A DNA stretch of 64,000 nt from Saccharibacillus endophyticus (GTDB lineage: Bacteria > Bacillota > Bacilli > Paenibacillales > Paenibacillaceae): NCBI RefSeq assembly GCF_013185185.1, contig NZ_JAAZWE010000002.1, positions 933,595 through 997,594 of the forward strand, read 5' to 3'. Shown here one piece after another: positions 3,543 to 9,485 of this stretch. Numbering within the stretch: position 1 is the first letter of the stretch; each line of letters opens with the position of its first letter. The position numbers and the translations under genes were made by a program. Below the pieces are notes generated by a model, which saw only the letters and a program-made list of their open reading frames with translations, was not told the DNA's origin and searched no databases.

Positions 3543-3684
3543 GATGTTCGCTCCTCTCCATTCTCCATTATAATCTCTATTATGATACCCCAAATCAGGG
3601 CGGTAAAAAAATCGGAAAACGAAGCGAGAGAACTTCGAAGCAGCATGCGTCTTAGCAGTAAATCATCACGGAGGAGGAGAATGC

Positions 3685-4278
3685 GTGGAAATACCGGATG
3701 ACCGGATCATCGTGGATGCCGTACTCGCGGGCGATAAACAGGCTTACGCGGGCATCGTGGATCGGTATAAAAATAAATTGTACGGATTGTTTCGGAAAAT
3801 GGGACTGGGTGAAGCGGATGCCCAGGATCTGACGCAGGAAACGCTGTTCAAGGCTTACCGAAAGCTGGACTCGCAGCGGACCGAACAAAGCTTTTCCGCC
3901 TGGATGCATACGATCGCGCTTAATTTGTTTCGGGATCGCGGGCGAAAGAAAGTTCCTGTTCCGCACGAACCGATCTTGGAGACTGCTGCTCCAAACATAG
4001 AAATGCCGGAAGAAAGCATGATTCGGGCCGAATTGCGCGAAGAATTGGATCGCTTGCTCGATACGCTGCCGGAGCATTATCGACTGGCGATGGTGCTGCG
4101 CTATACCGGGCAATTGAGTCACGACGAGATAGCGGAGCTTACGGGCATGAACGTCAGTCAGGTGAACAACGCGCTGTATCGGGCAAAATGCAGCTTACGC
4201 GGCAAGATCAAAGCGAAGGAGGGAATGCGCTATGAATTTCCGATCGCAGTCGACAACGGCAAAAGTTCCGCACGATAA
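3685..4278 (+). CDS. ECF-type RNA polymerase sigma factor
   Basis: A 197-residue sigma-70 family protein of the extracytoplasmic-function class. Region 2 (about residues 20-65) contains the DAQDLTQETLFKAYRKL helix that contacts the -10 element. Region 4 (about 120-180) has LPEHYRLAMVLRYTGQLSHD followed by an HTH, IAELTGMNVSQVNNALYRAK. There is no region 1 or 3, as expected. Translation starts at a GTG after GGAGGAGGAGAATGC. The 3' end overlaps the next gene by 47 bases in another frame, implying translational coupling with its presumed regulator, a DUF4179 membrane protein. Such pairs are usually autoregulated, but I could not assign an ECF promoter with confidence in the upstream 140 bp. Confidence 0.92.
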   Translation: MEIPDDRIIVDAVLAGDKQAYAGIVDRYKNKLYGLFRKMGLGEADAQDLTQETLFKAYRKLDSQRTEQSFSAWMHTIALNLFRDRGRKKVPVPHEPILETAAPNIEMPEESMIRAELREELDRLLDTLPEHYRLAMVLRYTGQLSHDEIAELTGMNVSQVNNALYRAKCSLRGKIKAKEGMRYEFPIAVDNGKSSAR

Positions 4279-7574: not shown

Positions 7575-8045
7575 CTAGGATCTCCGCTGCTCCACGTATT
7601 CCTGCATGTCGCGCAAGTTGGAGATCGGCGAAAACCACCCTTGCTCGCCTTCGTTGAATCGCACGCCGTACAAGCCGGACTTTTCGATCTCTTGCAGCCA
7701 ATTGATCATCGGATCGACCTGCATTTTGGCAATAAGCACCTGTCCGCCCGGCGTCATCAACTGATTATTGCGCGCGAACACTTGGGCATGCATCGGATCG
7801 GTGAACAGGAACGCCCAGCCTTGTCCGTCAACGTTGCCGAAAAACGGCTCCGGCTGCTGCGGGTTATCGCTCGGCTGCATGAGAATCAACCAGCTGTCCA
7901 GCTTGAATGCCTCTCCCCAGATCAACGTCTGTCCTTCCGCGAACGGAAGCTCTCTCGCCTGCTCCACCGTTACGTCGAAATGCGCGGCCAGATCCGCAGC
8001 CTCGCGTACCTGCTGCTGTTGTTGCGGGTTTTGTTCTTGGGTCAT
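7575..8045 (-). CDS. SseB-like uncharacterised protein
   Basis: 156 residues, cytoplasmic, with a Gln-rich N-terminus (EQNPQQQQQ). The body resembles SseB-type domains: WLILMQP, a WAFLFTDPMHAQVFAR strand-helix unit and a GLYGVRFNEGEQGWFSPI region near the end. No catalytic motif was seen and the function is unknown. The start is supported by an AAAGGAG eight bases upstream. A second ATG codon lies directly before it (ATCATGACC), so the start could shift by one or two codons. No operon partners. Confidence 0.7.
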   Translation of the reverse strand: MTQEQNPQQQQQVREAADLAAHFDVTVEQARELPFAEGQTLIWGEAFKLDSWLILMQPSDNPQQPEPFFGNVDGQGWAFLFTDPMHAQVFARNNQLMTPGGQVLIAKMQVDPMINWLQEIEKSGLYGVRFNEGEQGWFSPISNLRDMQEYVEQRRS

Positions 8046-8298
8046 GATGAAAAACTCCTTTCGATACGGCTCGGTAATGAAAACTTCTATTCATTGTACC
8101 GAATCGAGGAGGAGAATGCGAAGCGGAAGTTAATTTCAAACAAATCGGTCTCGGTCGCTGACGGTGTCCTCTTTGCGAATGAACGACTAATAAATCTTTC
8201 TTGAAGATGCTTACTCTTCGCCTGACTCATGCTGATGTGCAGTTTTTTACAGTATCTACTTTAACTTTTCCTTCTATTAATAACAGCAAGCTGTTTAC

Positions 8299-8516
8299 TT
8301 ATAAAATATGCTCGAACATCTTCACGACTTCTTCCTTCGTCCGTTGGAACGGATTGCCCGGAGCGCAGGCATCCTTCCTCGCAAGCAGGAATGCGTCGGT
8401 GACAACGAGCGCCTTGCGGCCGCCGAGTTGGTAAAATGCAGGCCGGCCTCATTCAGACAACCTCGGCCCATCAGATTAACGGGAGGAACATAATAGACAT
8501 GCGTAGTCAAATTCAT
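8299..8516 (-). pseudogene. Iron-containing alcohol dehydrogenase, internally deleted and frameshifted remnant
   Basis: From the ATG at 8516 (after AAAGGAAG) the reading is MNLTTHVYYVPPVNLMGRG... and matches the extreme N-terminus of type-III Fe-ADHs. After about 30 codons a frameshift is needed to continue as LGGRKALVVTDAFLL, the next conserved block (the NAD-binding strand). Directly after it comes KDACAPGNPFQRTKEEVVK followed by a few residues and a stop, which is the family's conserved C-terminus. About 300 residues, including all the metal ligands, are therefore missing. Only ~70 codons survive. The deletion joins the first ~45 and last ~25 codons of a gene normally about 385 codons long. 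The promoter region is still recognisable upstream (see the Rex-like site). Confidence 0.8.
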
Positions 8517-8584
8517 CTTCCTTTCTCGTTCGCTTCTTTGGTTACGGCTTGAAAAGAGTCGTACTTCAATGTCTACATTATCAT

Positions 8585-8602
8585 TAGTGAATATTTTCAC
8601 TA
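8585..8602 (-). promoter_or_regulatory. Rex/Fnr-like operator upstream of the dead alcohol dehydrogenase gene
   Basis: TAGTGAATATTTTCACTA is an 18-base near-perfect palindrome. The core GTGAA-N4-TTCAC is identical to the core of the Rex consensus TTGTGAA-N4-TTCACAA, with one symmetric mismatch per arm; it also fits GTGA-N6-TCAC of Fnr/CRP-type sites. It lies about 70 bp before the start codon of the Fe-ADH remnant, next to a GATAAT -10-like sequence on the minus strand. Fermentative ADH genes are classic Rex/Fnr targets. Confidence 0.55.
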
Positions 8603-8828
8603 AATAATAAAAGCCACATTTATTTAAGGAGTTATTCCAATTAATAATTTTCAGTCCTGCCGCCAGATTTGCATCAAGGGTCATTTTTGGGTAACAATAT
8701 TGAAGAAAGGATTTTTTCGGAACGACGGATGCGGCTTTCGGTTTTTCGACCCCGTTGTTTCTAAAGGCTGCCGACTGTGTAACTTTTAATAAACTCAAGC
8801 GTATAACCTTTTGGAGGTGTTTGACTGT

Positions 8829-9485
8829 ATGAATAAAATGAAATCTTTATCCGTTTTGGCTCTTACCCTGATGCTGACCGGCGTGTTGGCCGCATGCGGC
8901 AACGATCAAGCGGCTTCGCCGTCTCCGTCGACGTCTTCGGATTCCCAGGCGGATAGCTCGGCGAACGACCAATCCAGAGAAGACAACGACGCGCACCCGA
9001 CAGACGAAGTGGACATCGACAAAGAAAACAGCACGGAGTCCCCTACCGATTCGGCGATCGGAGAAGCTCAGGAAGAAACGGACCTCGACGCGACCACAGG
9101 CGATCCTGTTCCTGCGGACGACGAGTCGAAGGATAACGCGGAAACCGACAGCACGCCTGCCGAAACGAAGCCGGACGAGTTCGCTTCCGATTCGGTAAGT
9201 TCGACGAACAGCGCAGCGACAGGAGGAACGACCGGAACCGCTCCCGCGACTACGCCTGCGGCGGACGAGCAAAGCGGCGAAGGATCGTACGTCGGCCTTG
9301 CCGACGCCCACAGCGCGGAGATCGAAGTGGACGGCGAGCCGGTCATGTACCAGTTGTCCGAAGAAGCCCAAGCGCAGCTCGGTCAAATTCCGGCGGATGC
9401 CCAAGTCACGTTCACGTATACGGAAGAAGACTTTGATTCCGAAACGAAGGTACTGACGATCACGGACATCAAAGAAGCCAAGTAA
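8829..9485 (+). CDS. Acidic-linker lipoprotein of unknown function
   Basis: 218 residues. A lipoprotein signal peptide with the lipobox LAAC (Cys near residue 22) is followed by ~125 residues of low-complexity Ser/Asp/Glu/Thr/Ala sequence. A compact C-terminal domain of ~65 residues (GSYVGLADAHSAEIEVDGEP ... VTFTYTEEDFDSETKVLTIT) looks like a small beta domain. It is probably tethered outside the membrane, with the linker spanning the wall. The start was chosen at the ATG 11 bases after GGAGG; a GTG/ATG upstream lacks a ribosome site. I do not recognise the C-terminal domain. Confidence 0.8.
   Translation: MNKMKSLSVLALTLMLTGVLAACGNDQAASPSPSTSSDSQADSSANDQSREDNDAHPTDEVDIDKENSTESPTDSAIGEAQEETDLDATTGDPVPADDESKDNAETDSTPAETKPDEFASDSVSSTNSAATGGTTGTAPATTPAADEQSGEGSYVGLADAHSAEIEVDGEPVMYQLSEEAQAQLGQIPADAQVTFTYTEEDFDSETKVLTITDIKEAK

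Follow-up and report, generated by a model that had tools for sequence, protein, structure and literature searches.

The locus considered here raises the question of what kind of alcohol dehydrogenase (ADH) gene has been lost from it, how recently, and whether the palindrome left upstream is an operator that has outlived the gene it served. The DNA analysed (hereafter the window) is a stretch of 64,000 nucleotides, G000:C11:933595-997594, from a genome of 5.94 Mb in 18 contigs. An initial annotation had described the site as the remnant of a fermentative alcohol dehydrogenase with its redox operator still in place. What remains is probably a group III Fe-ADH gene that became a pseudogene not long ago; its product most likely served rhamnose fermentation as a lactaldehyde reductase, and the case is one of ordinary gene decay.

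The first and last codons of the gene (about 45 and 25, respectively) had been described as fused with a frameshift after the deletion of some 300 codons, and alignment to the intact gene of a relative bears out most of this description. When window:8230-8830 (minus strand) was searched against 16 genomes of the genus, the closest genome at the locus was that of Saccharibacillus sacchari DSM 19268 (G011; NZ_KK073875.1; L024/L101), which matches in two blocks, with 85% identity over positions 1-448 of the query and 93% over positions 449-600. Between the blocks lie 939 further bases, completing a 385-codon frame with the same start and stop. The S. sacchari orthologue shares its flanking gene order, its promoter block and 92-93% DNA identity (query 206-600) with the window copy, but is an open frame and has the 939 bp, one base and 30-bp promoter piece that the window copy lacks (Table 1). 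The 5' fragment comprises codons 1-45 in 134 nt (45 codons minus one base), starting with the ATG at 8516-8514, and the 3' fragment comprises 84 nt, i.e. the last 27 codons and the stop codon TAA at 8301-8299; the 313 codons in between (46-358) are absent. The frameshift likewise stands, but not as a property of the junction: the 939-bp deletion is in frame and, taken alone, keeps the reading frame, and the shift stems from the separate loss of a single base at codon 28 (between 8436 and 8435). A frameshift belonging to the large deletion is rejected, since 939 is divisible by three and 53 nt separate the one-base loss from the junction. The third lesion, 30 bp gone from the promoter, is a loss in the window rather than an insertion in G011, because two further genus genomes, G001 and G012, also have bases there. 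No direct repeat was seen by eye at the break points of the 939-bp deletion in the alignment, with G011 as proxy for the ancestor. Homology to PF00465, the group III Fe-ADH family, is present over both ends, which align with the G011 protein at residues 1-42 and 359-385, in agreement with the proposed Fe-ADH origin of the fragments. The catalytic middle of PF00465, in which the metal ligands presumably lie (codons 46-358), is absent, so that the window copy is a pseudogene and no working member of the family; its disabling lesions are defined against an intact orthologue at the same place.

Table 1. Features of the ADH pseudogene locus, in coordinates of the window.
Feature	Position	Strand	Basis
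ADH pseudogene, 5' fragment	8383..8516	-	BLASTN and global alignment to intact G011 gene; protein query 1-42
ADH pseudogene, 3' fragment	8299..8382	-	DNA identity 93% (query 449-600); protein query 359-385, 93%; alignment
Deletion junction	8382..8383	-	Global alignment to G011 gene
Likely -10 GATAAT of dead promoter	8577..8582	-	Inferred by alignment with TAGGAT/TACGAT of relatives
18-bp palindrome TAGTGAATATTTTCACTA	8585..8602	.	Motif scans, alignment, shuffles
Half site TGTGG CTTTTATTATT	8603..8618	-	Promoter alignment, distance and mismatch scoring
Site of 30-bp promoter loss (between 8626 and 8625)	8625..8626	-	Alignment with G011
Divergent small lipoprotein gene, LytA-like	8829..9485	+	NCBIfam NF058647, below cut-off
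Conserved 156-aa protein gene, downstream of pseudogene	7575..8045	-	Genus comparison

The loss looks recent, since the fragments have changed mostly at synonymous sites, i.e. much of their divergence was apparently accumulated under constraint. Compared with G011, there are 8 synonymous and 4 nonsynonymous changes in 69 comparable codons (dN/dS 0.14); these counts are small. The corresponding dN/dS values are 0.03-0.17 for six neighbouring genes and 0.05-0.08 for pairs of intact ADH genes among G011, G001 and G012. Together, the intact G011 orthologue, the absent middle and the low dN/dS of the fragments support the suggested loss as real and probably recent. Full-length relatives with at least 66% identity occur in six of the 16 genus genomes (G001, G004, G006, G011, G012 and G014), and an ADH relative of 54% identity is also found in G002 and G004. 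In G011, G001 and G012 the lipoprotein and 156-aa genes flank the ADH; G003, G005, G010 and G013 have both neighbour genes and gave no ADH match below E 0.1. A 40-nt match in G008 was discarded, there being no ADH gene at that place and just a 63-residue match (27% identical, E 0.015). The ADH is an accessory gene, and the locus is one case in which Saccharibacillus has recently lost such a fermentation enzyme, with little meaning beyond the genome itself. Literature searches on Saccharibacillus alcohol dehydrogenase or Fnr, and on Fnr-adhE sites in Paenibacillus, gave nothing about this locus among the papers listed.

The flanking genes show features of their own. The dS of the lipoprotein gene relative to G011 is 0.07, far below that of five other neighbours (0.19-0.46), and the gene is poorly conserved across the genus, with 46-63% identity in six other genomes. 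The 156-aa protein is 97% identical in G011 and 78-92% identical in six other genus genomes; it has no Pfam or NCBIfam match, and an 'SseB-like' label for it was not confirmed by searches of these two libraries.

Two accounts would remove the need for a dead gene or for a dead promoter. According to one, the strain itself carries a complete gene, the middle of which went missing in assembly, and the comparison does consist of assemblies alone, with one genome per species. However, there are three separate lesions (939 bp, one base and 30 bp upstream) and four nonsynonymous changes, with no repeat seen at the junction, and the middle is found on none of the 18 contigs of a genome rated 100% complete. 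A protein search of the own genome with the G011 ADH returned only residues 1-42 and 359-385, together with three other matches of 28-36% identity, which belong to other Fe-ADHs, including adhE; on this search, the idea that misassembly had put the middle elsewhere was rejected as well. An assembly artefact is therefore very improbable. According to the other account, the residue is still useful, its promoter or palindrome driving or repressing the 156-aa gene or the divergent lipoprotein gene. In its favour, no terminator-like site was found in 8050-8850, and both neighbour genes are intact and conserved. Against this, the promoter elements are decaying, and the neighbours stand side by side without an ADH or a detectable remnant of one in the four genomes named above, from which it follows that they do not need the ADH promoter; a function of this kind is hardly to be expected.

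With regard to the enzyme itself, 'fermentative alcohol dehydrogenase' is replaced here by lactaldehyde reductase as the better guess, given that relatives lie in rhamnose operons. The best NCBIfam model of the intact relative is lactaldehyde reductase (TIGR02638), with 452.8 bits against a cut-off of 523.15, i.e. below it. The intact G011 protein matches ADH chains of solved structure over residues 4-383, the closest being an NAD-dependent methanol dehydrogenase, alcohol dehydrogenase 2 and 1,3-propanediol dehydrogenases, with lactaldehyde reductase after these. The lactaldehyde reductase chains 1rrm and 2bi4, which we take to be E. coli FucO, are likewise Fe-ADHs (E 1.2e-88 over residues 16-381), and by analogy the pathway role of the lost enzyme may have been the same, although methanol dehydrogenase 8zrl and alcohol dehydrogenase 2 3owo score better than these chains and the window copy is dead. 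With a TIGR02638 score below cut-off and a methanol dehydrogenase as closest solved chain, the substrate is a guess.

Gene order is the more informative evidence and points in the same direction in part of the family. Related loci were compared for 80 of the 591 confirmed, and rhaA, rhaB and rhaD were called at E 1e-15 within the stretch around each locus. At least one of these genes accompanies the ADH at 28 of the 80 loci (all three at 16, two at 1 and one at 11), and the remaining 52 have none in the stretch examined. In the congener G014, the ADH adjoins rhaB, rhaA and rhaD, and the ADH of Paenibacillus albidus (L103) precedes genes for rhamnulokinase, rhamnose isomerase and rhamnulose-1-phosphate aldolase (rhaB-rhaA-rhaD), each above its curated cut-off, with a divergent DeoR-family gene beside the cluster. 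The Paenibacillus rha-linked ADHs (e.g. P. albidus L103 and P. helianthi L105) are 76-77% identical to the intact relative but, unlike the pseudogene, lie within a rha cluster with the DeoR-family gene diverging from it. The S. sacchari ADH is not linked to rha genes, which lie elsewhere in that genome, and the own rhaB, rhaA and rhaD are likewise present at another place in the genome. Across the genus, rhaD is found in 15 of 16 genomes (own included) as against six with an ADH of at least 66% identity, and rhamnose use thus does not need the ADH. In Listeria, rhamnose fermentation leads from lactaldehyde to 1,2-propanediol, according to the available text of PMC8386454. The enzyme is best read as of the lactaldehyde-reductase type of rhamnose fermentation; through it, a cell living on rhamnose by fermentation would have shed reducing power in the form of 1,2-propanediol, and it would have been dispensable because the cell keeps rhaB, rhaA and rhaD.

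The promoter was aligned for the own genome (G000), G011, G001 and G012 with eight Paenibacillus rha-linked orthologues and G014, in a comparison that rests on alignment between short A-rich stretches. The four Saccharibacillus promoters fall in line with a layout of an A-rich element, TTGACA and TACGAT/TAGGAT, and the Paenibacillus rha-linked promoters, with their A-rich element, TTGACA and TACGAT, align with that of the pseudogene. The likely -10 of the dead promoter was not found by a consensus promoter scan. The 30 bp lost from the window hold AATAAACAAAAAACCAC in G011, resembling the rha-operon element, with similar bases in G001 and G012; they include the A-rich element, which is the best conserved element of the promoter and is common to the rhamnose operon. 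The own rha operon has this layout upstream, as do the rha operons of G011 and G012. With up to 3 mismatches allowed, the element matches two places in the own genome (none in the control), and the better of these is the rha-operon site at C10:396116. By consensus score, the pseudogene promoter and that of G014 are equal at 7 mismatches, giving no separation. From the alignment we infer a promoter of rhamnose-regulon type, and the ADH would have belonged to the rhamnose regulon, as suggested also by the operon position of its relatives.

A tree of 35 proteins, drawn from 31 of the 80 related loci and four genus genomes, adds a second strand to this history. The Saccharibacillus clade falls outside the rha-linked clade and is sister to a stand-alone P. 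amylolyticus group (96/83), and both lie beside the rha-linked clade (97/94; nine of ten rows Paenibacillus or G014). Like the Saccharibacillus gene, the ADHs of the P. amylolyticus group (L110, L111, L112, L115 and L117) have no rha genes beside them. Unlike the pseudogene, their promoters carry a GTGA-N6-TCAC box 22 nt before TACAAT, i.e. at class II distance, and the A-rich element was absent from them by eye. Orthologues of one ADH thus carry different promoter elements, either of rha type or GTGA-N6-TCAC at class II distance. A redox-type box at a conserved position in the P. amylolyticus group, G004 and G006 makes redox control before the loss possible, and a mixed promoter history is plausible, which counts against a simple rhamnose-only account.

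The palindrome on which the proposal of redox control was based had been placed about 70 bp upstream, with one change from Rex per arm and a GTGA-N6-TCAC core, and this description is accurate. The sequence TAGTGAATATTTTCACTA occurs once in the window, 68 nt from the ATG, forms an 8+4+8 palindrome when extended to 8584-8603, differs at two positions from the Rex consensus TTGTGAA-N4-TTCACAA and overlaps the likely -35 region and spacer of the dead promoter. It holds the sole GTGA-N6-TCAC core in the 64 kb, where 0.71 are expected and at least one is found in 48 of 100 shuffles. Among 5000 dinucleotide shuffles of the 312-bp intergenic stretch, a Rex-like site with up to 2 mismatches appeared in 15, a GTGA-N6-TCAC core in 8, a perfect 8+4+8 palindrome in 43 and a perfect palindrome with any spacer of 0-10 in 346; the motif match therefore appears to exceed chance for this stretch, uncorrected for the number of places inspected, and the bare palindrome only mildly so. 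The S. aureus Rex operator is TTGTGAAW4TTCACAA, and Rex sites there overlap promoters, as far as the available text of PMC2883068 describes them. The palindrome is likewise 18 bp long with equal arm and spacer lengths, has an A/T-only spacer and overlaps the likely promoter, but it has one change per arm, at the second position, and is weaker in the nearest intact relatives. By its position, and by analogy with S. aureus, it is possibly a Rex-like repressor site, though with its best match in a dead gene. S. pneumoniae adhB2 was rejected as precedent for a Rex-controlled orthologue, as its product is described as zinc-containing in the available text of PMC6018154.

If the palindrome were a functional operator for Rex or Fnr, the gene would have been under oxygen/NADH control and the operator would have survived it. 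Besides its rarity in shuffles and its promoter overlap, this idea can draw on the regulators of the own genome, which encodes a Rex-family protein and Crp/Fnr-family genes, one of them divergent to adhE (L078, G000:C10:1203426-1204498). The product of the latter matches NCBIfam Crp/Fnr models, none above cut-off, and has a cysteine-rich C-terminus, a cluster that presumably marks the Bacillus-type Fnr. Two GTGA-N6-TCAC sites lie within 450 nt upstream of the own adhE, and the core is found at -79 to -82 in all seven readable adhE regions of the 12 fetched, those of G001, G012, G014, G005 and G010 being left aside. The arms GTGAA-N4-TTCAC are kept in three of the seven, and a search demanding these arms added three further adhE sites. 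Six adhE sites were scored, all of them 0-1 mismatch from FNR and 2-3 from Rex, and sequence alone thus cannot separate Rex from Fnr sites. The own adhE site is 2 mismatches from Rex, no better than the palindrome; this intact own ADH gene has a site alike in core and Rex mismatches but with 31 nt from site centre to -10, as against 12 nt here. The orthologue sites of G004 and G006 are 1 mismatch from Rex and 0 from FNR, at another, conserved promoter position, and those of the P. amylolyticus group, also at a conserved promoter position, are 2 (four sites) or 3 (one site) from Rex and, in all five, 1 from FNR. The GTGA-N6-TCAC core is kept at the place of the palindrome in G011 and G012, and relative to the FNR consensus TGTGA-N6-TCACA (available text of PMC8151001) there are 2 mismatches in the window, G011 and G012.

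Nevertheless, parts of the comparison with relatives speak against a working operator. At the homologous place, 2 positions differ from the Rex consensus in the dead copy, as against 3 in G011, 4 in G012 and 7 in G001; the core is missing there in G014, and the agreement between G000 and G011 is no independent evidence, the two being so closely related. No core was found in nine of the 14 Paenibacillus loci examined, within 330 nt upstream of the Paenibacillus rha-linked ADHs (e.g. L103 and L105), or within 250 nt upstream of the Streptococcus and Abiotrophia orthologues (7/7 loci, a subset of those among the 80). A class II Fnr site has its centre some 41.5 upstream of the start, which puts it 30-31 nt from the -10. 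The palindrome, with its centre 12 nt from the likely -10 in the window (12-14 nt across G000, G011 and G012), does not lie at this position and is no class II activator site, as against 30 nt in G004, G006 and L110. The adjoining half site (Table 1) reads TGTGA in G011, G001 and G012, at 29-31 nt from the -10 and hence at approximately class II distance, and is changed by one base in the window copy; with 4 FNR mismatches here and 3 in G011 and G001 it is weak. With the best Rex match in the dead copy, a centre at 12 rather than 31 nt and a promoter element lost, it is doubtful that the palindrome is a redox operator still in place. Rex or Fnr control of the lost ADH is possible, the palindrome being a putative site only, and a working operator is on balance rather unlikely. 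A composite history, in which the gene left the rhamnose operon, its promoter was being rebuilt to redox control and the gene died with the operator at its best match, is more doubtful again; as part of this joint reading, the Rex/Fnr-type palindrome would have arisen where the -35 region and spacer had been, and the locus, if this were true, would be a snapshot of a promoter outliving its gene. If, as is preferred here, the locus is a decayed lactaldehyde reductase gene of the rhamnose regulon, the palindrome would be a leftover inside a dead core promoter.

Several observations made along the way concern other sites. The own genome has 19 places with up to 2 mismatches to the Rex consensus, compared with 7 for a reversed control. 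Two Rex-like sites lie 34 nt apart (L073/L074, G000:C14:17558 and 17592) before a pyridine-nucleotide oxidoreductase gene, which we take to be nox-like, and Rex-like pairs or single sites precede the same gene in G002, G003, G005 and G007. GTGA-N6-TCAC near TATNAT was found at five places in the genome (control, 0), namely L098, L099, adhE and two ambiguous ones; at L098 (G000:C11:417363) and L099 (G000:C14:228915) it lies at class II distance from TATNAT, presumably preceding a nirB-like gene and two near-identical tandem DoxX-like genes, respectively. As a by-product, a candidate rhamnose-regulon promoter element common to Saccharibacillus and Paenibacillus emerges: TTAAACAAACATAAAACCACAT ... 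TTGACT ... TAGGAT precedes rhaB in Saccharibacillus (L226, about 3610-3726; L229, 3914), and the element is also found at Paenibacillus rha loci.
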